A stretch of 35,790 bases of DNA from Spirogloea muscicola (taxonomy: Eukaryota; Streptophyta; Zygnematophyceae; Spirogloeales; Spirogloeaceae). The notes beneath the pieces were generated by a model that saw only the letters and a program-made list of their open reading frames with translations, was not told where the DNA came from and searched no databases. A program made the translations under genes and the position numbers. The stretch is taken from the NCBI GenBank assembly GCA_009602725.1, contig WELB01000144.1, forward strand, positions 355,734 through 391,523, given 5' to 3'. Positions 3,001 to 28,139 of this stretch are shown one piece after another. Positions within the stretch are counted from its first letter, which is position 1. The number at the start of each line of letters is the position of its first letter.

Positions 3001-4118
3001 CCCAAGCACAAGTTAACACCAGCATTATGCTACTTCGTCTTGTCAATGTTCTGTGGTCGTCATTCCTGCATTGCTCCTGTTGAACATTGGTCGACCCTGT
3101 CGCATTCCTTTCTAATACTGTTGCTTGATGAGTGCAGTATCACGCAAATCAGTTCCTTCCCTTGACTGATGAGCAAGCCGTGGCCAAAGTCATGGACTAT
3201 CTGGCCACTTGCATACCTGCATTTGCTGAGACCAGAGTCCTTGATAAAGTTGTTGTGCGCTTTCGGCGAGCTGTCACTCACTTTTTCCCAGGTGTGCCTC
3301 AATGCCTTAGCTCAAATAAGCAGCAGCTAAGCACTGAGCAACTCACCAGATAAGAGCCTTAAGGCGGATACTTTCTCACACGACCAAGACGAAATCTACT
3401 CAGGATGAGAGTAGACTTTTTGCAGCAGATTTGTGTATTCGCTTGAGGTATCTCACTTGCTAGGTGCATGGGCCTTTGCTTGCCTGGTTCACTTTACTGA
3501 CTAGTCCTACGTGCGAGGTTGACCGAATAGCTTTATCTGCTTTTGCTGATGTTGCCAGGCTCCTATCAATACATGATGAGAGGGACTACCAGCTTCCCAA
3601 ACGTCTTCATGGCAGGCGACTGGATAGTGAACGAGCATGGGTCATGGTCGCAGGTGCACATTGCAGCCACACTCGTGTCTCTTGCAGTGCAACATCGTCA
3701 CCCTCGTACTTCATGGTGCAGGGCTTGTAGTCCAACTCTGCAGTACAGATTCATCACAAGAAAGGTTGCTTCTCAGAATGTTTTGCAGCCCAGCTACATT
3801 TTTTATCTCACCTTTACTCAAAACATAGTCACTTTCAAATTTCTGTGTACCTCTTGTATGCACAAGAAGTGCCTAGAAATTGTCAAATTGTCAATGTTTG
3901 GCCATTCTGATGTATTCGACTTCTGAAACTTGCAGGAGAAGGCATATGTCACTGGTCTAGAGGCGGCCAACAATGTTGTGCGCCACTTTGGAGAGGGCCG
4001 TTTAGCAAACATAATCCCAGTGGAAGACGACGAGGTGCATGTCAGCATGCTGCGGGCTCTGAATCGTCAGGCGCGGGCCGCCCTCTCGCAGCTCCCATTT
4101 GCGAGCTTCTTCTTGTAG
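19..4118 (+). CDS. FAD-dependent oxidoreductase, phytoene-desaturase/amine-oxidase superfamily (plastid-type)
   Basis: Thirteen exons: 19-360, 593-692, 800-906, 1072-1140, 1316-1370, 1590-1637, 1794-1951, 2140-2378, 2543-2633, 2757-2885, 3138-3291, 3559-3653, 3936-4118. Together they make 1770 nt, or 589 aa, with all phases consistent. An Ala/Pro/Ser/Arg-rich leader looks like a chloroplast transit peptide. It is followed by the dinucleotide-binding motif VVVVGAGWAGLGATHHL, the segment GIHGFWYPYRNIF and the C-terminal FAD-binding segment FMAGDWIVNEHGSWSQ. The order and spacing match the plant family I remember as Arabidopsis At3g09580-like; its substrate is unknown to me, so I do not call it a carotene desaturase. 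The start at 19 gives the leader. Met at 154 is an alternative, and coding could extend left of the window. Intron 4 (1141-1315) has a GC donor. The neighbour on the right is convergent. Confidence 0.88.
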
Positions 4119-4765
4119 CAGCAGCTCGAGCTGCCCACATGAGTAGGCCCCCAGACTTTATCTTCGAGCACCTCGACAAAGTCCTTGTGCTGGCTGCCAT
4201 TGCTGACTAGCTAAGGTCAAGGCTGGTCAGCCCATCAAGCGGCAGGCGCATGAATGTCGGCACCTCATGACTTTATCATTCTTTTAGCAATCAGCTCCTC
4301 AGTACGTTAACCGTGTCAGATTATCCTCAGCATTAGGATCCCTGCGCAGGGCACATCACCTGCAGCAATTTGCAGCAACCTTCCTAACTAGAGGTCAAGA
4401 CTATTCTAAAGACTTCCTAGTGAAGGCACATCCTGCCCATCCTGGCTCCCACCAGTGTTTGATTACACCTACACAGAGGCCCTCCCCATTGTGCAGAGAA
4501 GGTTAGTCGCAATCTTAAGAGACACATGCCCTGGCACTGGCATTTATTGGGTAGGTGTATTGATTAGCCGCTACTGCAATGTGCAAGCTGGTCACCCCTG
4601 CTGCAGGGAGCAGCCAACTCCTATTGCTACTTAATGGCAGGCAATCACAACTGCAATGCATCGGCCAAGTGATGCTGGACATTGAAGCTGCGTCACTGTG
4701 GGCCCACACTGCAGGTCTGTGCGACAGTCCTGCCCAACAATTTTAGCAGGTTCGCAAAGGGCCAG
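4119..4765. other. Convergent intergenic spacer between the stops of genes 1 and 2
   Basis: This 647-nt space separates two tail-to-tail genes and must hold both 3' UTRs and polyadenylation sites. I see no conserved reading frame, repeat or RNA gene in it. Confidence 0.6.
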
Positions 4766-15564: not shown

Positions 15565-16265
15565 NNNNNNNNNNNNNNNNNNNNNNNNNNNNNNNNNNNN
15601 NNNNNNNNNNNNNNNNNNNNNNNNNNNNNNNNNNNNNNNNNNNNNNNNNNNNNNNNNNNNNNNNNNNNNNNNNNNNNNNNNNNNNNNNNNNNNNNNNNNN
15701 NNNNNNNNNNNNNNNNNNNNNNNNNNNNNNNNNNNNNNNNNNNNNNNNNNNNNNNNNNNNNNNNNNNNNNNNNNNNNNNNNNNNNNNNNNNNNNNNNNNN
15801 NNNNNNNNNNNNNNNNNNNNNNNNNNNNNNNNNNNNNNNNNNNNNNNNNNNNNNNNNNNNNNNNNNNNNNNNNNNNNNNNNNNNNNNNNNNNNNNNNNNN
15901 NNNNNNNNNNNNNNNNNNNNNNNNNNNNNNNNNNNNNNNNNNNNNNNNNNNNNNNNNNNNNNNNNNNNNNNNNNNNNNNNNNNNNNNNNNNNNNNNNNNN
16001 NNNNNNNNNNNNNNNNNNNNNNNNNNNNNNNNNNNNNNNNNNNNNNNNNNNNNNNNNNNNNNNNNNNNNNNNNNNNNNNNNNNNNNNNNNNNNNNNNNNN
16101 NNNNNNNNNNNNNNNNNNNNNNNNNNNNNNNNNNNNNNNNNNNNNNNNNNNNNNNNNNNNNNNNNNNNNNNNNNNNNNNNNNNNNNNNNNNNNNNNNNNN
16201 NNNNNNNNNNNNNNNNNNNNNNNNNNNNNNNNNNNNNNNNNNNNNNNNNNNNNNNNNNNNNNNNN
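15565..16265. other. Assembly gap (701 Ns)
   Basis: The gap removes the first exons and the shared promoter region of the divergent PTRHD1-like and leucyl-tRNA synthetase genes. Flanks are very GC-rich (ggcggcgtcggc repeats on the left, gccgccggcgcc on the right), a typical cause of gaps. Reading frames that run through it are artefacts. Confidence 0.99.
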
Positions 16266-19200
16266 CGCGCGCCTTCGACGCCGCGCCCGGCACCGCCGGC
16301 GCCGCCGCCGGCGCCGGCGGCAAGTTCTTCGCCAACTTCCCGTACCCGTACATGAACGGCCGCCTGCACCTCGGCCACGCCTTCACCTTCTCCAAGGTCT
16401 GCGCCTGGCCCAGCCGCCGCGGCTCCTGCTGCCACCATGGCCGCCGCTGTCAATCCTAATTTGAAGGTCACAGGTTCGAAGCCTGTAGGGTCCGTTGAAG
16501 TGAAGAGGCGCTGCTGGCCCAGCTTGGGATCAGTCCTTCACGCGGATCAGACCTCCAGGGCGACGTTCTCCGCCGTCTGATTCTGATCTGCACTTGTTGA
16601 CTAGAGTTCATTGAGTGCCGATTAGCAGGAGTCATTAAGGATAGTCTCATGTTTTTTGCGCCTTCCGGCCTTTTCCGACCTTGTGCATACCTTTGGGCTG
16701 GCCTCTCACAGCCAGTGCCGTATCTTGGAATAGCTATCTCTTCGCGCTGCGGGCCCTCATGCTCAGATTGTAGAAATGGAAGTTTGTTACAAATCTCAGC
16801 AATGAGACATTTGTAGGTAATAGGTAATGTAGGCCTCTGGGGCTAAGGCTAGGTCCGCGACCTCCACTGCGCTTCTGCCACCGGTGGCCTCTGGTAAAGC
16901 CACCCGTCGCCTTGCTTTATTGCCACTTGCTGTTGCTGCGGTGCCAGCTAGAGAGCCAGCCTCCCTCTGAACCATTGCGGCTTTCCACATCCTTTTGGCA
17001 CAGCTTATGCCTTCCTGTGCGAGAGGGATGCCAGCTTAGTCACGCTAGTGCCGTCCTTTGAAGCCAGGCCAGGAGGCGCTGCCATTTGCTGCAGGACCTT
17101 GACCATCTCCTCACTGGTTGTCTCCTTGCTTACGCTTCAGGTGGAGTTTGCAGCGGCGTACCATCGCCTTCAGGGCGCCCGCGTGTTGTGGCCGTTTGGC
17201 TTCCATTGCACCGGCATGCCCATCAAGGTCCCTAAGCTGAAGCACTTGCGCACCCCAAAACCCACCCACCAGTCCTGCAAGAACACCAAGTTTCCCCTCT
17301 GACCTGATCTAGTGACCACTGGTGCTATTGTTAGGATAGAGTTAAGGGTTTAGGGTTTAAGGATTCAGGAATTTAGGGTCTAGGGTTTAATCGCCAGTCT
17401 TTCTGTGCAAGGCGTGCTTGATCAACGTGTTCTTGATTGATCTTCTGAGTTCCACACGGTTTTGTTGTCAGACTCGGGACTTAGTATTAGTTGCATTTTA
17501 CCAATTGAAAGCCTGTCTGATGAGGCCTGCCTGCATTGCACATCCTGCATCAATATCCGTCCAAGGAAACCTTGAGTTCTAGCTTCAGAGGGATCCTGAA
17601 TTAATCAGGCAAAGCCTAAGCTTCTGATTGCTGGCTTAGAAAAGTCCAGGCCAATGCGCAGAGGGCCCGTGCTTTGGCAAGGCCCTCAGCTGCCAGGGTT
17701 CTCTTAAGCCCTTAAGTGTTAGTTTAGCCCTTAATGGTCACTGCACAATGGCGTGCGTAGGCGTGTGCGGACAAGCTGCAGCGAGAGTGCCAGATGTTCG
17801 GCTGCCCTCCAAACTTTGCCGAGGCAGAGGTCGAGCCTGAGCCCGTCGGGCCGCCTGCTGCCAGCGAGCCCCCGCCAGCTGAGGATAGTGATCCCACTCG
17901 GTTCAAGGCCAAGAAGGTATCCATATTTAGGTGCACATATAGTGGCCAATTAGACTCGATCATGCGTGCATTTTTGCAGAGACATTGTCTCACCTTGTAT
18001 GCAAGTCATTGACCTTAGGTACTGCGGGCTAATGCGCAGCAAATACTGTGCATGCGCGTGCAGTCTAAAGCTGTGGCCAAGACTGGTCATGCCAAGTACC
18101 AGGTGATATATCTTCGCCCAAGCTGAAGCTCCCTAGAACTCTTGTGCGCGTGCTCTAGTATATAGCACATGGCAGCGCTCAGACAACCCTTATGAAGCGG
18201 CATTTTGGCCTTGTCCTCTGCAGTGGGAGATAATGAAGTCGCTCGGCCTGGATGACAACGAGATTGCCAAATTTAGGGACCCGACCTACTGGCTGAAATA
18301 CTTTCCCCTTGTTGCTGTGGTGAGTATGTGGGAGGTCAAGACATTGCTGGACCCCTGTCTAGATTGACTACTGTGTGTGCCACCTTTATGCAGATCAAAT
18401 CATTAATCTCCAGCTGAGAATATGGAAGTCGAAGCTCTTATTGATTGTTTTGTCCTGATTCCTAGGATGACCTGAAAGCGCTGGGTCTCGGGGTGGACTG
18501 GCGGCGGTCCTTCATCACGACCGATTACAACCCCTATTATGATTCATTTGTCCGGTGGCAGTTCAACGTTCTCAAGGAGAAAGGCAAGGTGTTGTTTAGA
18601 AGTGCAAGATATTGTTACCATCTGGCAGCATACTTAAGGACAGTGTCTTCTTGGGGCTTCCACTTGATTTGTGGAGCTCGTCAAGCAAGTGCATGTATCA
18701 TAGCAGATGCTACTGTGGGTTGTATGCATGTTGTGGGAACCATCTGATATCTCCTTTGCTGACCAGCCAACAAATCTGGCACCCACAGCTACACAAAGAC
18801 TTACAGACTGCACAGATGCGTACGATAGAAGAACTGATGCTTTGAAATAGTGGCCAGGTCGTCAAGGACCGCCGTTATACAATATACTCCCCTCTCGATG
18901 GTCAGGTTAGTCCAAATGCGTCCTTCTTGAGTTATCATAGAAGTCATAGGAGTCGATGGCTTGCCAACTTTGTAGCATGCACGACCTCTGTGCTACTAGA
19001 AGGGAGGACTCAACCAGCAAGCTCTCTATACAATGCACTGCTGGTCAAGCAACTGAAGAGGCTGGGTGCCACTGGCAGCCGTGCGCCGACCACGACAGGG
19101 CGTCCGGCGAGGGGGTGCTACCGCAGGAATACACGCTGATCAAGATGGAGGTCTTGCCACCACTCAAAGGTACGTATATTAGAGACAGTAGACGTCAGAC

Positions 19201-22200
19201 CAGAGACTAAATGACTTCAATTGAAGTTAGACTGGCAGGCTCAGATGCCACACACCTCAAGCCCTGTGGCGTAGATCCGTGTGCCTCTTGCTTATTAAGT
19301 GCAGATGTCACCACAACTCCGTCTGTCTTTGACATGCGAGTGTCAACTAAAGGCAGCCTTAATGGTTATAAATGGGCTTGGCTCAGGATTTTGGTCTTTG
19401 ATTGTCGGTTCTTAGTTTTTGAGTCAAGATTATTAGATACGAACAAGCAAAACATCTAATCTTTTCTCCAAGTTAGAAAGTAAACTTTTTTCTTTATTAG
19501 AATAAGTAAATGCTTTCTTTTGTTGCATTTTGAAAATTCTGCAATCTTGGGTCAAGCAAACCTCCTTGAGTGTGTCTAACCTGCTCCATAGTCTCACTCT
19601 TTGACTGTTGAAGGCAAGCTTGCGCCTCTTGAGGGGAAGAGGGTGTACCTGGCTGCGGCCACGTTGCGACCGGAGACCATGTACGGTCAGACGAACGCGT
19701 GGGTGCTGCCCGATGGCAAGTACGGTGCATACGAGGTCAATGATACAGATGTCTTTATCATTACTGAGCGCGCTGCCCTCAACTTGTCCTACCAGTATCA
19801 CTCTAAGGTATGCACAAGCCTTTCCAGACCGAACCCTAAACTCTCAACCCTAAACCAGACCTAATTCTTAATCCGTAGACTTTGGGTTTTGCATGGCCCC
19901 TCCACTGCATCTGCATCCCACATTCATGACTAGATTCTGACAGTCGAAGACGATATACTGTGTACAGGAGGTTGGAAAGCCAGTGTGCCTGGCAGAGTTA
20001 ACTGGACACGACCTCATTGGGCTCCCTCTTCGAGCGCCCTTGACCAGCTACGATGTCATCTATGCCCTGCCCATGCTTACCATCCTCACTGATAAAGGTG
20101 AGCAGCCTCCAAGATGTCTTGCTGTATTCGGATGCTCTGCTTCAGTTGTATATGTAATTGCTTGTAGAATGGTGTGCATTTGGCACTTGGCACACCACGT
20201 GCATAGCAGGTTAACTAATATCATAGGGCGTTTCTGTTTGATATGTCAGGCACTGGCATTGTGACCAGTGTACCCAGTGACTCCCCGGATGACTTCATGG
20301 CCCTGAAAGACTTGACGAGCAAGCCAGGTTGGCTACATCCTGCAGTCAACTTCTGTGTCCACATCTGCATCCAGTGTGCTCATTTGGTCTCCTCCAGAAT
20401 TACTTGCAGTCCCCCCAAGCTTATTTGGTTCGTCACCGACAGTTGCCATCCACTTGGGTTTATTCGGGCCTTATCAGCGAAATATATTCACCCACTAATA
20501 TTGATCTCATCAGGAACTTTGTGCTTGTTCCTGTCTTCATTGTACAGCACTGAGGGCCAAGTATGGGGTGGAAGACAAGTGGGTGCTGCCCTTTTCAGTC
20601 ATACCCATCATCAATATACCTGGCTTTGGGGACATTGCTGCTGAGAAGGTTTGCATGGACTTGAAAATCAAAAGCCAGAATGACAAGGAAAATCTTGCGG
20701 AGGCAAAGCGTCTGACTTATCTGAAGGTGAGCAGTCTCTTTTTGCCATGTCAGTGGTTAGGTTATTGAGTTCTCAATCAAGGTCTGTGACTCTGTCAGGA
20801 GCTACGATGGTCATGGAGAGGTCATGGGAGATATGATGTGATGTCATGCTGCTGCTCCTTGCTTCTGGTACCCCTCGTTGAAGGACATGCGGTGCTTGAA
20901 GCAGAGGAGCCATGCTTCTACGTGGTCACTTTCAGTGGCTTGCCACAGATCGCACTTCGTAGTGGGTGAATATGTGCTACCACTGAATTGTGCAAGTCTT
21001 GGTGCCATGGGCTCGTTCACTGGCAGGGCTTCACTGACGGCGTCATGCTGATCGGCGAGCACAAGGGCAAGAAAGTCCAGGAGGCTAAGCCTCTAATCAA
21101 GAAGGTCAGCCTCTGGTCAAGACGCTCTCGATCTACTATACAAGGCAGGACACAGCCCGTCATTTTCATCAGCTTGGCCTGTGTGTCAGAGTCAGTCTCA
21201 TTCGATCTAAAGGGGGCCTGCAAGGACTCTGGTTTCTGATGTCTTGTTGGTGCCTGCTGCATGGCCATGAGGCAAGCAGATGCTGCTGGAGGCAGGGCAG
21301 GCCGTGCTGTACAGCGAGCCCGAGAAGAAGGTCATGTCACGGTCGGGGGACGAATGCCTGGTGGCTCTTACAGACCAGTGGTGAGTGTGCACTTGTGCCT
21401 TGGCTATGTAAAATTTCTTGATTGCAAAGGTTTACTCTTACATCATTGTTAAGTGTGGGAGAATGTGGGCAGTGATTGTGGCGGACCAAGTTTATTTGAT
21501 CTCAGATAGTGTGTTAGGTACCTTACTTATGGAGAAGAGGAGTGGAGGGGGCTGGCGGAGGAGTGCCTCAAGGTCATGGAGCTCTATGCAGAGGAGACGA
21601 GGCATGGTTTCGAGCACACACTTGGTTGGCTTGACAAGGTCAGCTTGTCAATATGTACCCCAGCCTACCCACACCATCTCCAGAAGAGGCAGGAGTACTT
21701 GACTATGTGACCAGATCTGCCACATTCATGTTGTCCTTGATGGGTTTTCTTCATCCAAGGTATCTGAGGAACAATCTAATAATGTACATGGTCTGTTTGT
21801 CTCTCTTGGCAGTGGGCGTGCTCTCGTTCCTTTGGCCTGGGATCAAGGATACCTTGGGACCCTCAATACCTCGTCGAGTCCCTCTCTGACTCCACAATCT
21901 ACATGGCCTATTACACTGTCGCTCACATACTCCATGTGAGGCCCAGAAATCTCGCTTGTCCGTCCATCGCATGCCCGTGTTGTATTGAACCCCTTAAGCA
22001 CTCGATGTGTTGACTGACAGTCACCTCAGGTTAGATGTCCGCACTGCAGAGATTGTCAAGTATCAGCAAGATGGCAGCAATAGTGTCCACCTTGTTTGGC
22101 GGCGTGTAGGACTGGTTGTTCTCACACTGAATCGCAGTCGAAGAAAACGGTGACTATTCGTCTGCTGATTGTACAGGGTGAAGACCTTTTTGGACAAAGG

Positions 22201-25200
22201 CCTGGACAAATAAAGGCCGAGCAGATGACACCAGAAGTCTGGGACTTTCTCTTCAGGGATGGCCCATTTCCAGACACCGATATTGACGCTGACATCCTCA
22301 AGGCATGTCAATGTCTTGCCGACACTGAAGCACATGACCTCGGACTCCCAATCACGGTTGGGCCATGTTAGTATAATACAGGAAGACAGATGTGCCTAGT
22401 ATTCATCAGCTGATGTTGACAGTGCCCCTTTGAGGTCTCATCAAGTGCAGAGTGCGAAGGAGGAGTTTGAGTACTGGTACCCATTTGACTTGAGAGTGTC
22501 GGGCAAAGACCTAATTAACAACCACTTGACTTTCTGTATCTACAACCACACTGCGTTCTTCCCAAGGGTATCACAATCTTTCAAGCAATATGTTGGTGCA
22601 GACTAAGGATGGCTTGCTGACATCAGGCGGCACACTATTGCAAGTCTTGTTGCCTTATCAGTAAGCAGGGTCAATACAAGCTTAAGGAGACTCTGAGGTT
22701 GCTTATGTACAACTCCACAGGAAAAGTGGCCCAGGGGCTTTCGTTGTAATGGACACCTACTGCTCAACTCCGAGAAGATGTCCAAGCAAACAGGCAACTT
22801 CAAGACCGTGAGGGATGCTGTTGGTGAGCCTTAGTAGTAGCCTAGGATAGATGTATCAGGACACTGAACAGAACATCGTATCAACAAAGCAGCAATGACT
22901 AGCGTAGCTGCTCCTATGGAAGTTGTTCACGGACTAGTGAAACCTGCCAGTGACCATTGCAGATGACTCTTGCTGTGAGGATTGTTTGTGGCTTGTTGCA
23001 GCCCTGCTCTGCCCTGTAGGTGTAGTTGTCCTGATAAAAGAATATCATCACAATGATATCAGAAAATGGCCTGATAAGAACAGGTTCTGCATGCAAATGA
23101 GCATTTCAGCATAGCTTGTGTTATAGAAAGCTGGCTGGTGATCTGATTGAAGCCCATTCATGTGTGTCCTTTGTATGCGTCTGGTTGGCACAGATGAATA
23201 CTCTGCCGATGCAACTCGATTTGCTCTAGCTGATGCTGGGGACACAGTAGATGATGCCAACTTTGTGGCGACGACCGCTGATACAGCCATACTCCGTCTT
23301 ACCAAGTACATCATTGCTGGCCCCTCCCAATCTGTTTCTCATTTGCAAGAGCAATGTTCTCTGTCTCAGAGTAAATTGTTGAACCAGATATGAAAATGTT
23401 GACGTTAAGCTTACAGAGATAATCTGGCCATGAGGAAGGCTTTGATTGGCTGATGATAAGCAAATGATATGTGCATCAGGCTTTTGTGCTGAATGATATT
23501 TATATAATGCATAGTGTGTTCATAGAAATGAAGTAAACTGGTGCTTCTGTGATGCAGAGAGCTGGCGTGGATGGAAGAGGTGATTGCTGCAGACTCCAGC
23601 CTAAGGGGCGATGAGACAGAACTCACATTTGCAGACAGGGTCTTCCAGAACGAGATAGAAGTTGCCATCAACCGGACAGAGGCGAATTACAAGAACATGA
23701 TGTTTAGGGAAGCCCTGAAAACAGGCTTCTATGACTTCCAGGTAACCTAGTTCTACAATTTATGAATGGCATATCGTGGCCAGAAATGCAGCTTGTCTTT
23801 GAGCCGTTCTAGATACTGGGTCTAAGTGAAGGTCCAATGTTGTCCAAATTAAGTCTTATGATTGTTTGTTCTGATGACTGAAGCTTGCAAGAGATGAGTA
23901 TCGTCTTTCCTGCGGAGTTTCTGGGATGAGGCGGAGTCTCATTCGCCGTTTCATGGAGGTGCAGACACTGCTAATAACTCCTGTAAGTTCAGTTCCCACG
24001 ACTCAGCATGGTGACAATTACAACTGCGTAAATTTAAGGATGAGCCTGCAAGCTGTGGTTGATCATATACACTGTCCTTATTGCACAACGCAAACCATGT
24101 GGCAGACTGTGGCTTCCAAGCTCTGCAATGCTTTCTCATTCCTCCACTGCTTGAAGTAGCACTGAGGCACTTAAGTCGACTCTGCGAGGAGAGGCTTAGG
24201 ATAACGTAGCTTTCCGTCTAAGTGTATTTATGGGCACATATTTTGTACTTTCCAAGAGGTATTTGCTTAACAGCTTCACCTCAAATCTGCTGCCCAGATC
24301 TGCCCGCATTACGCCGAGCATGCATGGACAGAGGTTCTGGGGAAGGATGGACTTGCAATCACTGCTGGCTGGCCATCCAGCAGTCCGCCAGACTACACAC
24401 TTCAGAGCGCCAACAAGTACCTTCAGGTGCACCGATGCAATTTAGAATTTACCGTGGCTTGGAGCTCCTTATTATCTTATGTAAATTTGATGCTGGACCT
24501 TGCTGCAGTGTACACAGTGGACGAACTTGTTCAATGCAGAAAATCTGTCTGCCACTCTTGCTAGTTGCGCTGCATCTCAATTACACTCGTCTTCATGCAT
24601 TTCAGGACACGATAACTGATTTCAGGAAATTGATGAGCAAGCAAGCAGCCTCTAAAGAGGCCAAGAAGCCCTCTGCAGCGGCACCTGCGACTGCACAAGC
24701 AGATCAGTGCCTGGTCTTTGTGGCAGAGACATATGGGGGCTGGCAGGTAGCGCCACGTGCAATCTGACCCGACAAACAATGAGAAGCGTTTGTCAGCTCT
24801 CCCAAAAGCATGAGCAAGCACAAAGCTTAACGGGTTTGCAAATCATTGCTACTGTGCTCCTTCTTATGCATGACTCATTGAGGCCAAGTTGTAGCATCAT
24901 GCTGAGTTGGTAAGCTTGTGACTTGGTATCAATGTGGTCATTGGTGAGTGAAGGAGGAGTGCTTGAAGCTGCTACAGACTCACTATGACAGAGAAAGAAA
25001 GAGTTTTCCAGATGATGCAACGCTCATTTCTGCTCTCAAATCCAGTCCTATTGCAAAGGTAGCAACAATGACAGCTATTGCTCGCACAGGTTGCTCAACG
25101 TACAAAGCATGACTATCTTGTCTCCTTTCACAACTCCTGTTGGCATTTTCTCGCTCAGTATATGTCTGCTGAATGCGAATTTTTAATGTCCTTCTTGTCG

Positions 25201-27690
25201 TGTGATATCTGTGGCACGTGCTGCTGTTATCTAGGAGTCTGTGGTAGCTAATTTGTGGTGTGGCATATCTACATTGTGCCACATTATCGTATTATTATTG
25301 CATGTATTCTTCCGTTTGGCTCATTTCTGTCATAGCACCTTGCTTGAAGATGGGAGACTTCAAGAAGATTATGGGCCAGTGTATGGGCTTCCTGAAATTT
25401 AAAAAGGACGCCGCTCTTCTGACTGGCCCACAGGTATTGCCTCTGGCAAAATGCAACTTGGGGTATGAATGTTCTAACATATACACAGAGGAGTATTAAG
25501 CTGGTGCAGATCTCAGAATCTTACAAGAAGTATGAGATCGCATGCATTTCTGTGCGGCGGGTCATGAGAAGACTTGTGCGGAATTTACAAGGATAACCTC
25601 TGTTGTTATAGTCTTTCATACTGTGCATTGTAGCTGGGCACCTTGCTAAGACATTTCTTTCTTTGACACTCAGGCTCTTGAGCTACGGCTTCCCTTTGAC
25701 GAAGCTGCTGTGTTGCTGGACAATGCAGACCTCATCAAGGTACACTTAGCCACAGCAGCTGCATTGGGCTGGTATTCTTGCTTGCTAGAGACATGCTGAC
25801 GTTCACTCAACAGCAGGCAGTACATTTGAGCTGTACAGTGGTCAACTGCACTCGCCTTGTTAAAGTAGGAGAAATGAACCTGAATATTGTCATAGTGGGG
25901 CTATTGCTGAGTGCAGAGGCAGCTCGGCCTTGAGAAGCTGGAGGTGCTCCCGACTTCCGATGAGGCAGCATTCAAAAGGGCAGGGGCTCAGGCATCGCGG
26001 ATCCCGACGGCAGTACCCGGCAGCCCTGTAGCTGTATTTTTGTCGCCTCAGCAGGCTGAGAGGGTCAAAGCAAAGGTGAAGAGAAAGGCCAAGATGGGCT
26101 GCCATTTGCATTGCCTTTTATTAGAAATGCAGCTTCCATCATGCATTGCTGCAGTATGCTTTCCAATGTAGATTTCACATGTGACATGATCAGGCGGCCT
26201 GACCTGCGGCACATCAATGGCCAGGTGTACCTGCGGCCAAAGTCATCCAGCGAGGCGGCAGTGAGGCAATGCCTAGCCATGCTGGGGTCTGACATCGAGG
26301 TCCACGACGTGACTGGTGCCCCGTCAGAGCCAGTGGTAGCAGCTGCCTGTGAGGCTCCACACCTTGATCCACTCCAGAAGGTCATTAAGCCTCGAGCAGA
26401 TGGCTGTCATGTAGCCATCGTGCACGCGTAGTAGGAGTCCTCTTGACAAGTCTGACCTTCTGCTAGCTTGGTACTAGAGTCACTATGAAGTTTGTGTGTA
26501 TTATGTCTTAAAGCAGGCTACTCTTCTCCTTGTTGCTGCATGCTTTGCTGCCTTCTGATGATGCTTGCTCAAATTGGAACAACAGCTTTCTCAGTAGAGG
26601 TTTGGTATAACTTTGTCGGACCGGACCTTGATGGACAGCTTTCAGCCTGGGCCTGTTGTACCTGTGCTGAGCTTGCTGCAGCTTCTGGAGCAGCTGCCGT
26701 GCTCCAGGGGGATGGCCTGCTAGTGGCCGGCACCGCCAGCATCCTGCGCTACTTGGGCAATGCTGCACCCATGGGGTCGTCAATGTATTCTCGGGATCCT
26801 GCAGGTGACAGTCTTTTATAATCATCCCCTGTTGTTTCTCGGTGGTCCTTTCTAATTTCCTCTGCTGTGTATTCTGCCTCAGGAGGGGGGTTTTGGTGGT
26901 GGCATTTGCGGGGGTTACACTGCATTCACTCAACTGTTCAAACAATTGTAGACAACTGAAGAAGTATAGCTACAGGAGGTATATATCTCATCTTGGACTT
27001 CACATCGTGAGCATCTTGTTTGGATGGCTGCTGCAGTACGAGCGGAGACTGACGAGATCCTGGACTGGATCACAAGCAACCTCCAGCCATCCATCTCGAA
27101 CGGCGACCCTAATGCAGCATTGAGTGCTCTCGAGCACTGGCTTCCTTCCTGTAAGCACTTCGCTTTGCCTCCTATCATGTACTTAACACCAAGATGTGGT
27201 GCCTTCTGTCCACACAATGCTTCTCAATATCTGCAGTCTAGGCAGCATGTTTTGGCACTAGTAAATAGGATACATTTTGACGTGATATGGTTGGGTGAAC
27301 AGGGAGGGCCCGGAAGTCAAGAAGCATCGCAGACGTTCTGCTGGCAGCCGTGCTGAGGGATATTCAGAATGACCTTGCAAATGGCCCCTATGTCAGGACG
27401 AGGACTTGGCTCCAGGATTTTGGTCCTGCCCTTTCATTCGTTTGAGTTGACAGGGAAAGAACAAGTATGGAAGTGCACCATATTTTTGGGTTGAGAGAAC
27501 GATGAAGCTTGATGAAAGGATGTGAGCAGCCCATCCAGCGAGCAGGACACGCTGCATACAGGAACGCGCTATGACAGCACATATATTACTTGAATCTGTC
27601 AATCATCGTGGCAATGACGCTGATATTGCAGACCTACCAGAGTTGTCAGAGTGGTGGAGTGAAAATGTGACAACGGCAACGACTGACTAG
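16266..27690 (+). CDS. Cytosolic leucyl-tRNA synthetase, with probable C-terminal GST-like domain (5' partial)
   Basis: Charges tRNA-Leu and edits mischarged tRNA. Exons: <16266-16396, 17141-17227, 17761-17916, 18064-18102, 18224-18319, 18466-18588, 18858-18905, 19079-19169, 19614-19807, 19968-20097, 20250-20327, 20548-20726, 21027-21104, 21280-21380, 21518-21638, 21813-21935, 22177-22302, 22451-22567, 22721-22823, 23194-23305, 23558-23741, 23884-23982, 24298-24426, 24606-24746, 24954-25058, 25350-25433, 25674-25739, 25917-26075, 26225-26380, 26600-26804, 27037-27150, 27303-27422, 27632-27690. This gives about 1283 visible aa, phases consistent. The class I HIGH motif is HLGH in [13 protein letters not shown]. 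Editing-domain segments are [14 protein letters not shown] and [16 protein letters not shown]. The KMSKS motif reads [22 protein letters not shown] and [14 protein letters not shown] follow the eukaryotic type. Intron 17 has a GC donor, and four introns end in AAG. The junction at 26075/26225 is the weakest. Confidence 0.9.
16470..16486 (+). other. tRNA T-arm / pol III B-box-like sequence in intron 1 of the leucyl-tRNA synthetase gene
   Basis: ACAGG-TTCGAAG-CCTGT forms a perfect 5-bp stem with a 7-base T-loop, and 16473-16483 fits the pol III B-box consensus GGTTCGANNCC. A near A-box (TGGCCCAGCCGC, 11 of 12) lies at 16406-16417. The preceding sequence does not fold into an acceptor stem matching the bases after the T-arm, so this is not a complete tRNA. 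It may be a tRNA-derived SINE remnant, since a dispersed-repeat copy follows at about 16678. Confidence 0.5.
16678..16715 (+). repeat. Dispersed hairpin-module copy inside intron 1 of the leucyl-tRNA synthetase gene
   Basis: Reads like the family consensus ccttgtccattcttttgggc followed by TGGC-(about 6)-CACAGCC, which can form a GGCTG/CAGCC hairpin. It is preceded by a gcc-ttccggcc stretch similar to the one before the copy at 28408. Confidence 0.65.
17340..17390 (+). repeat. Telomere-like tract in intron 2 of the leucyl-tRNA synthetase gene
   Basis: Several TTTAGGG-type units with drift (gggtttagggtttaagg and similar), about 113 bases after the donor at 17228, in the opposite sense to the tracts in introns of gene 3. 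Confidence 0.8.
19830..19862 (+). repeat. Telomere-like tract in intron 9 of the leucyl-tRNA synthetase gene
   Basis: CCCTAAACTCTCAACCCTAAACC begins 22 bases after the donor at 19808. Confidence 0.75.
26186..27690 (+). other. GST-like domain encoded at the 3' end of the leucyl-tRNA synthetase gene
   Basis: Exons 26225-26380, 26600-26804, 27037-27150, 27303-27422 and 27632-27690 encode about 217 residues of glutathione-S-transferase-like fold. [20 protein letters not shown] resembles the first strand and helix. [17 protein letters not shown] is the strand-helix end of the N-terminal half. [11 protein letters not shown] and [12 protein letters not shown] match the C-terminal half. Splicing from exon 28 (25917-26075) into 26225 stays in frame. 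A second in-frame option is donor 26042 to acceptor 26193. Alternatively, exon 28 reads through to a stop at 26169 and a separate gene starts at ATG 26186. The bounds of exon 26600-26804 are uncertain on the left (acceptor GTAGAG). Related GST-like domains on other aminoacyl-tRNA synthetases dock proteins in multi-synthetase complexes; that role here is inference. Confidence 0.65.
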
Positions 27691-28008
27691 TGCCATGCCG
27701 CCATGTGCACTGAACAACAGCAATGTGCACGCAAAATGCATGAAAGCACTCAACCAACAACGTGATGGCCAAGCAGCATCGGCGGCATGAGTCCCTTTGC
27801 AGTCACACCATACAAGGTTCTTGCAACTACGGCAGTTGCAAAAGAGGAGTCTGACTGCCACAACAGCTCATGTTGCAGAAGCTGTGTGTGGCAGAGCTGC
27901 CCTTGCGTAACGCTCTCATGCAACTGCCTATTTCTCAGAGCGCTGCACGTTCAACATTCATCTCCCAGGCTTCTGACCATTTTCAATAGGAACAAGAGGT
28001 TTATTTGA
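27691..28008. other. 3' flank of the leucyl-tRNA synthetase gene
   Basis: No reading frame with recognisable content. It likely contains the 3' UTR and polyadenylation site. It ends at a telomere-like tract that marks the start of the repeat-rich block. Confidence 0.55.
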
Positions 28009-28033
28009 GGTTTAGGGTTTAGGATTTAGGGTC
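28009..28033 (+). repeat. Telomere-like tract at the left edge of the repeat block
   Basis: gtttagggtttaggatttag type sequence, three imperfect units. This is the only such tract in the window that is not inside a recognised intron. Confidence 0.75.
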
Positions 28034-28139
28034 TTGCAGATGTGGGCATTGTTGCACGCCACTGGTTCCTCGTACCAGCAGTTGGTGGCTGGACTTTCTG
28101 CAGCGGCTTGCCAGGGGGGTCATCGATCATCGGCAGGGA

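Follow-up and report, generated by a model that had tools for sequence, protein, structure and literature searches.

We analyzed a 35,790-nucleotide stretch of DNA from the alga Spirogloea muscicola (the window; contig WELB01000144.1, positions 355,734 to 391,523, forward strand). Its plus strand carries a gene of 32 visible exons, from position 16268 onward, whose spliced translation is a eukaryotic-type leucyl-tRNA synthetase (LeuRS) running into a 167-residue domain resembling glutathione S-transferases (GSTs). The start codon lies within or 5′ of an assembly gap at 15565–16265. Exons 1–27 encode the class I catalytic core, the anticodon-binding domain, and a LARS1-type domain, and an editing insert is an expected part of the LeuRS encoded there. 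The Pfam families tRNA-synt_1, Anticodon_1, and RBD_LARS1 all scored above cut-off, and human LARS1 in the Protein Data Bank (PDB) matched the C-terminal part at E 5e-35. The translations of all three gene copies described below contain MNGRLHLGH and a KMSKS-type segment, both of which we take to be LeuRS signatures, the former of the HIGH type. By these features, the synthetase is classed as the eukaryotic/archaeal-type cytosolic enzyme, LeuRS-A. A 73-residue piece of its core was matched at 30 loci in a genome-contig collection, every one (30/30) with an archaeal title, and had no match among viral contigs.

A search of the genome (153 Mb, 471 contigs) with the tail identified two more copies of the gene, on contigs C15 (88% DNA identity) and C280 (84%); the window copy is on C144. 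Exon lengths are identical across the three copies for 31 of the 32 exons, with exon 1 measuring 129, 120, and 117 bases, a whole-codon difference. Splice dinucleotides are kept in all copies for 31/31 introns; these are GT-AG apart from intron 17 (22303–22450), which is GC-AG with the donor GCATGT in all three. A single stop terminates each translation, at a position common to the copies (following SFV, TSV, and ISV; TGA, TAA, and TAA). Identity was 0.89–0.99 for exons (three pairs) and 0.53–0.94 for introns (ends trimmed, two pairs). A run of N sits at the start of the LeuRS in each copy (in the window, the gap already noted; 3434–4103 and 4100–4124 of the two other fetched loci), so the LeuRS of each copy is read without its N terminus, with 1,234 residues of the protein visible; the run in C280 adjoins a long poly-T run. 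Short interstitial repeats resembling TTTAGGG, the plant telomere type, were seen at ∼17343–17390 (in an intron) and 28008–28035 (intergenic) of the window and also 5′ of the GluRS gene on contig C9. The genome as a whole seems to carry three diverged homologous sets (84–88% DNA identity here). GluRS, eEF1B-gamma, and several GST genes likewise occur in threes, and a triploid hybrid or similar genome is possible.

Table 1. Features of the LeuRS-GST locus, in window coordinates
Feature	Position	Strand	Basis
LeuRS exons 1–27	16268..25739	+	exon list, three-copy comparison, Pfam
Exon 28, LeuRS end (LGLEKLEV...GSPVAVFL) and 11-letter linker	25917..26075	+	three-copy alignment
Intron 28, phase 0, GT-AG	26076..26224	+	149/149/147 bases across three copies; in-frame open in C280
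Exon 29, GST-like domain, part one	26225..26348	+	three-copy alignment, dN/dS
Exon 30, GST-like	26682..26804	+	best solved-GST matches pass through here
Exon 31, GST-C helices	27037..27150	+	three-copy alignment, profile comparison
Exon 32, last, including stop TGA (TAA in the two other copies)	27303..27445	+	three-copy alignment
Earlier-proposed separate start ATG, rejected	26186..26188	+	in-frame TGA in C15
Earlier-proposed last exon, outside the gene on present evidence	~27632..27690	+	3′ of the common stop

The initial annotation had taken exon 28 as the end of the LeuRS and had read on, in frame, through five exons of a GST-like fold. In the three-copy alignment, exon 28 is indeed the LeuRS tail and is followed by the phase-0 exon 29 and further in-frame exons, which contain the motif TASILRYLG. 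Four of the five proposed GST exons (29–32) were retained. The fifth was discarded: it lies past the common stop, is poorly conserved, and is missing its acceptor AG in C15. The alignment of the three copies 3′ of the stop is broken by gaps. By our reading, the terminal tryptophan helix is probably supplied by a segment of exon 32 and not by a fifth exon. Other exon boundaries were also considered. A longer exon 29, reaching to LQK or SSSR, was set aside; the three copies do not agree in that part, and a phase 1 junction at CCT|GTGAGG suits all of them. Exon 28 has a second in-frame acceptor at 25923; we prefer 25917 because human LARS1 carries two extra residues there, and the computations on exon 28 took 25923. 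The alternative junction from 26041 to 26194, also put forward initially, did not hold: its donor scores −2.5 vs. 1.0 to 11.0 for the gene’s 31 donors, and the added segment has an in-frame TGA in C15. Acceptor 26194 alone scores 5.7 vs. 4.5 for acceptor 26225; its frame is mismatched to the phase-0 donor at 26075, and its use would place the C15 TGA inside the protein.

We compared selection on the two parts of the protein using dN/dS from Nei–Gojobori counts in the three copy pairs. The ratios were 0.083, 0.079, and 0.088 for LeuRS exons 2–27 and 0.090, 0.120, and 0.088 for the GST exons, with dS alike in both (0.18–0.21 and 0.15–0.23, respectively). Read in the other two frames, the GST exons gave 1.9–4.0. 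Moreover, their variable columns numbered 7, 5, and 34 at codon positions 1, 2, and 3 (binomial p = 2e-8). On these counts, the GST exons are under purifying selection like the LeuRS core. Exon 28 (from 25923) gave ratios of 0.418, 0.396, and 0.415 with 4, 5, and 8 variable columns by codon position; it can therefore be regarded as a loose linker joining two constrained parts.

The locus could instead comprise a pair of neighboring genes: a LeuRS of plant type with its end near 26171, and a small GST-like gene beginning at ATG 26186. Read through intron 28, the LeuRS of the window copy does stop at 26171, and the frame from ATG 26186 is open as far as the domain, as it is in C280. In C15, however, a TGA lies in that frame between the ATG and VYLRPK at the start of the domain, which makes a separate start at this ATG impossible in that copy; a separate 5′ end close to it was among the observations that the initial annotation had named as speaking against a fusion. 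In C280, moreover, intron 28 is 147 bases long and open, so that LeuRS and GST form one frame even unspliced and no LeuRS stop precedes the domain. Such stop-free read-through introns account for 2 of 93 intron copies, both in C280. Two genes would also be separated by a gap of just 14 bases, and starting from the next in-frame ATG (∼26279) would remove the first strand, whose codon changes between copies are mostly synonymous. Intron 28 has splice sites that are shared by all three copies and ordinary for the LeuRS gene: its donor ranks 10th and its acceptor 19th in strength among the gene’s 31 introns (leave-one-out weight matrix). One whole-genome search, run with an E limit of 10, gave 15 matches, of which 12 were the four GST exons in the three copies and the other three had E values of 0.38, 0.75, and 1.97; it revealed no stand-alone paralogue of the domain (best candidates scored, 18/18). 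We give very little credence to two separate genes.

Both forms might be made from one gene, alternative polyadenylation or retention of intron 28 yielding a plain LeuRS and splicing yielding the GST-tailed form. The intron is short, its retention in the window copy and in C15 would put a stop 31 codons downstream of the donor, and the linker exon is weakly constrained; because exon 28 evolves fast, a transcript could end there. Retention in C280, however, would not end the protein, and we consider this dual output unlikely. Chlorophytes usually signal polyadenylation with TGTAA, which the window copy does not contain in 24480–27150; this absence is uninformative because none occurs between the true stop and 29821 either. 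The gene structure in all three copies, the TGA of C15, the unspliced open frame of C280, and the failure to find a stand-alone copy agree with the fusion initially proposed and, at the DNA level, support LeuRS and the GST-like domain being encoded as one protein in all three copies.

We next consider the nature of the tail. With phmmer against the PDB, its best match was 4iel, a GST (E 7.4e-5), followed by 6nv6 (8.4e-4); a three-copy profile gave 4.5e-4 and 3.1e-3 for these two entries, and synthetase-type domains were absent from both the single-sequence and the profile match lists. Searched alone against Pfam, the domain matched only GST_N_3 (E 0.017 and 0.068; 15.9 and 13.9 bits, under the cut-off of 22), with no match to GST_C, and the full-length protein had no GST match. 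NCBIfam yielded FzlA at E 0.0014 and a pair of GST families with E values close to 0.1, all of them far under cut-off. Using hhalign, we compared the tail with four synthetase-type GST domains (EPRS, Arabidopsis GluRS, AIMP3, and MetRS) and obtained a probability of 92.5 and an E value of 4.9e-7 over residues 51–159. Smith–Waterman z scores were 6.4 for EPRS, 6.4 for Arabidopsis GluRS, and 7.0 for MetRS, with 0/500 shuffles as high in each case, and −0.1 for AIMP3, with 257/500 shuffles as high. One of the genome’s own stand-alone GSTs, on contig C92 and presumably theta-like, scored 73 with z 7.4 (100 shuffles), as well as the synthetase domains did, so the pairwise scores alone leave the nearest relative unfixed. 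The profile comparison and three of the four pairwise comparisons speak for a relationship to the synthetase-type GST domains, though not for any one nearest branch. The GST kinship first assigned to the tail is well supported. In non-eukaryotic collections, an alignment search found no relatives among viral contigs or genome contigs, and no phrogs family (0) matched at E 0.1.

In another reading, the tail would be a working enzyme, a glutathione transferase or peroxidase, joined to LeuRS as a redox link and not a docking module. Glutathione S-transferase is the annotation of the top PDB matches to the single sequence, and a Ser-rich stretch comes after strand 1. Nevertheless, the residues expected of an enzyme are missing. 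Catalytic GSTs have a cis-Pro before strand 3 and a Glu-Ser pair as their glutathione motifs; when the tail is aligned with 4iel, A-A takes the place of the V-P preceding strand 3 and G-T that of the glutathione-site E-S, which argues for a non-enzymatic domain. Its 167 residues are of synthetase-type size and fewer than the 201–254 of the GST chains among the matches listed (the exceptions in chain length there are a chain of 180 residues from a synthetase complex and further entries that are not GSTs), and the profile match to the synthetase-type set likewise counts against catalysis, which we regard as very unlikely. Docking appears the likeliest role because the domain resembles the GST domains of GluRS, EPRS, and MetRS and is without the cis-proline and the Glu-Ser motif.

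The place of the tail was examined against human LARS1. In the phmmer alignment with the full-length protein, query residues 2–276 of 426 correspond to human residues 831–1101 of 1176, the last ∼70 with low confidence; two shorter LARS1 chains align up to query residue 218–219, themselves ending soon after. Thus, the GST tail sits where the human C-terminal extension is. This extension, presumably the domain called UNE-L, resembles the tail in its place in the protein and differs in that there is no clear homology between them, with the alignment ending at query residue 276.

We also inspected the genes for GluRS, MetRS, and eEF1B-gamma in the same genome. The three copies of GluRS all apparently start with MA(T/V/A)D(G/C)GSFEVDLPG ahead of the catalytic core. 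No GST domain was found on any of the three in the DNA comprising the conserved ATG and ∼1.4 kb upstream, although an exon further off is possible. This upstream DNA is mostly unalignable between copies except for one block ∼200–400 bases upstream, in which 76 and 47 of 100 columns are identical, with frame-breaking gaps; beyond it lies a different gene, which we take to be NPH3-like. A single-exon profile search is insensitive (the best stretch in the window’s own exons, with self left out, reached E 0.11); absence is argued chiefly from the conserved ATG and the upstream DNA. MetRS on contig C213 (191898–197632) appears to start with MGEGDELAAD and has tRNA_bind matches downstream; no GST domain was found on this one copy, examined singly, which makes the claim weaker than that for GluRS. 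A human query for cytosolic MetRS gave strong matches on one contig only; three others, on C189, C135, and C29, were weak (E about 1e-3), in a genome in which other genes come in threes. Further tRNA_bind matches were seen on C367, C45, C71, and C32. There are three copies of eEF1B-gamma, each with a GST_C_2 match ∼1 kb off on the same strand.

We conclude that the gene probably encodes a cytosolic LeuRS with a C-terminal, noncatalytic GST-like domain that most likely serves as a docking module. The gene structure, its conservation in three copies, the selection on it, the GST-type similarity, and the missing glutathione motifs were observed; we infer the single mRNA, the fold, the docking role, and the partner. 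The GST-like tail would begin just past the point where clear homology to human LARS1 fades and would pair with another GST-like surface, either a second copy of the same tail or a translation factor of GST-like type, for example eEF1B-gamma. This pairing would tether LeuRS into a translation assembly, and the tail would thereby do the job of the human LeuRS C-terminal extension.

Several known systems offer comparisons, here drawn from parts of the cited sources. Pairwise contacts in synthetase complexes are described as driven by GST-like domains (PMC3930741), and the C-terminal appended domain of human LeuRS as needed for complex assembly (PMC4394549). The superfamily table of AARS Online lists GST on CysRS, GluRS-E, MetRS, and ValRS, and the text seen of a trypanosomatid synthetase paper calls a GST-like domain common on GluRS, ValRS, CysRS, and MetRS. 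In the open-licence literature, as far as its texts were available, we found no report of a GST domain on LeuRS; outside it, in subscription journals or protein databases, an unremarked annotation may exist. None is reported in passages of PMC4394549, PMC11580382, PMC7564348, PMC4301749, PMC8319005, PMC6792207, PMC5662610, PMC6723311, and PMC3930741. The tail is like the GST-like domains of GluRS and EPRS in its similarity over residues 51–159, which include the SILRYL and S-(I/L)-A-D motifs, and in its length; unlike that of GluRS, it is on the C terminus of LeuRS, in an organism whose own GluRS appears to start without one in all three copies found. With the MetRS/AIMP3 system, it shares a docking-type GST domain and a pairwise z of 7.0 to human MetRS, whereas the synthetase and the end of the protein are different, AIMP3 gave no pairwise signal, and on the one MetRS examined in this genome no GST was found. 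The vertebrate ValRS also has a GST-like domain on a synthetase, which according to passages of PMC4394549 tethers it to eEF1B; that domain is N-terminal and on ValRS, and a tethering role of the one described here is a prediction.

Multi-synthetase complexes of eukaryotes are commonly connected through GST-like domains, placed on GluRS, MetRS, ValRS, and CysRS in the portions of the sources seen. A GST on LeuRS together with a GluRS apparently without one suggests that these connectors can move between synthetases. Such movement would make it possible to test directly what selection maintains, the complex’s architecture or the inclusion of one particular synthetase. More tentatively, and with considerable doubt, the GST docking domain may have changed owner in this alga, lost from GluRS and now on the C terminus of LeuRS, with LeuRS nucleating the assembly instead of GluRS or MetRS. 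The fusion may point to a distinct synthetase complex in Spirogloea muscicola. LeuRS is reported, in the part of PMC4394549 seen, to be a leucine sensor in animals, a role that is disputed; a docking tail on it could also matter for nutrient signaling. If the change of owner is true, it would represent a rewired complex, whether a synthetase or an elongation-factor assembly, and a natural experiment on the purpose of such complexes.
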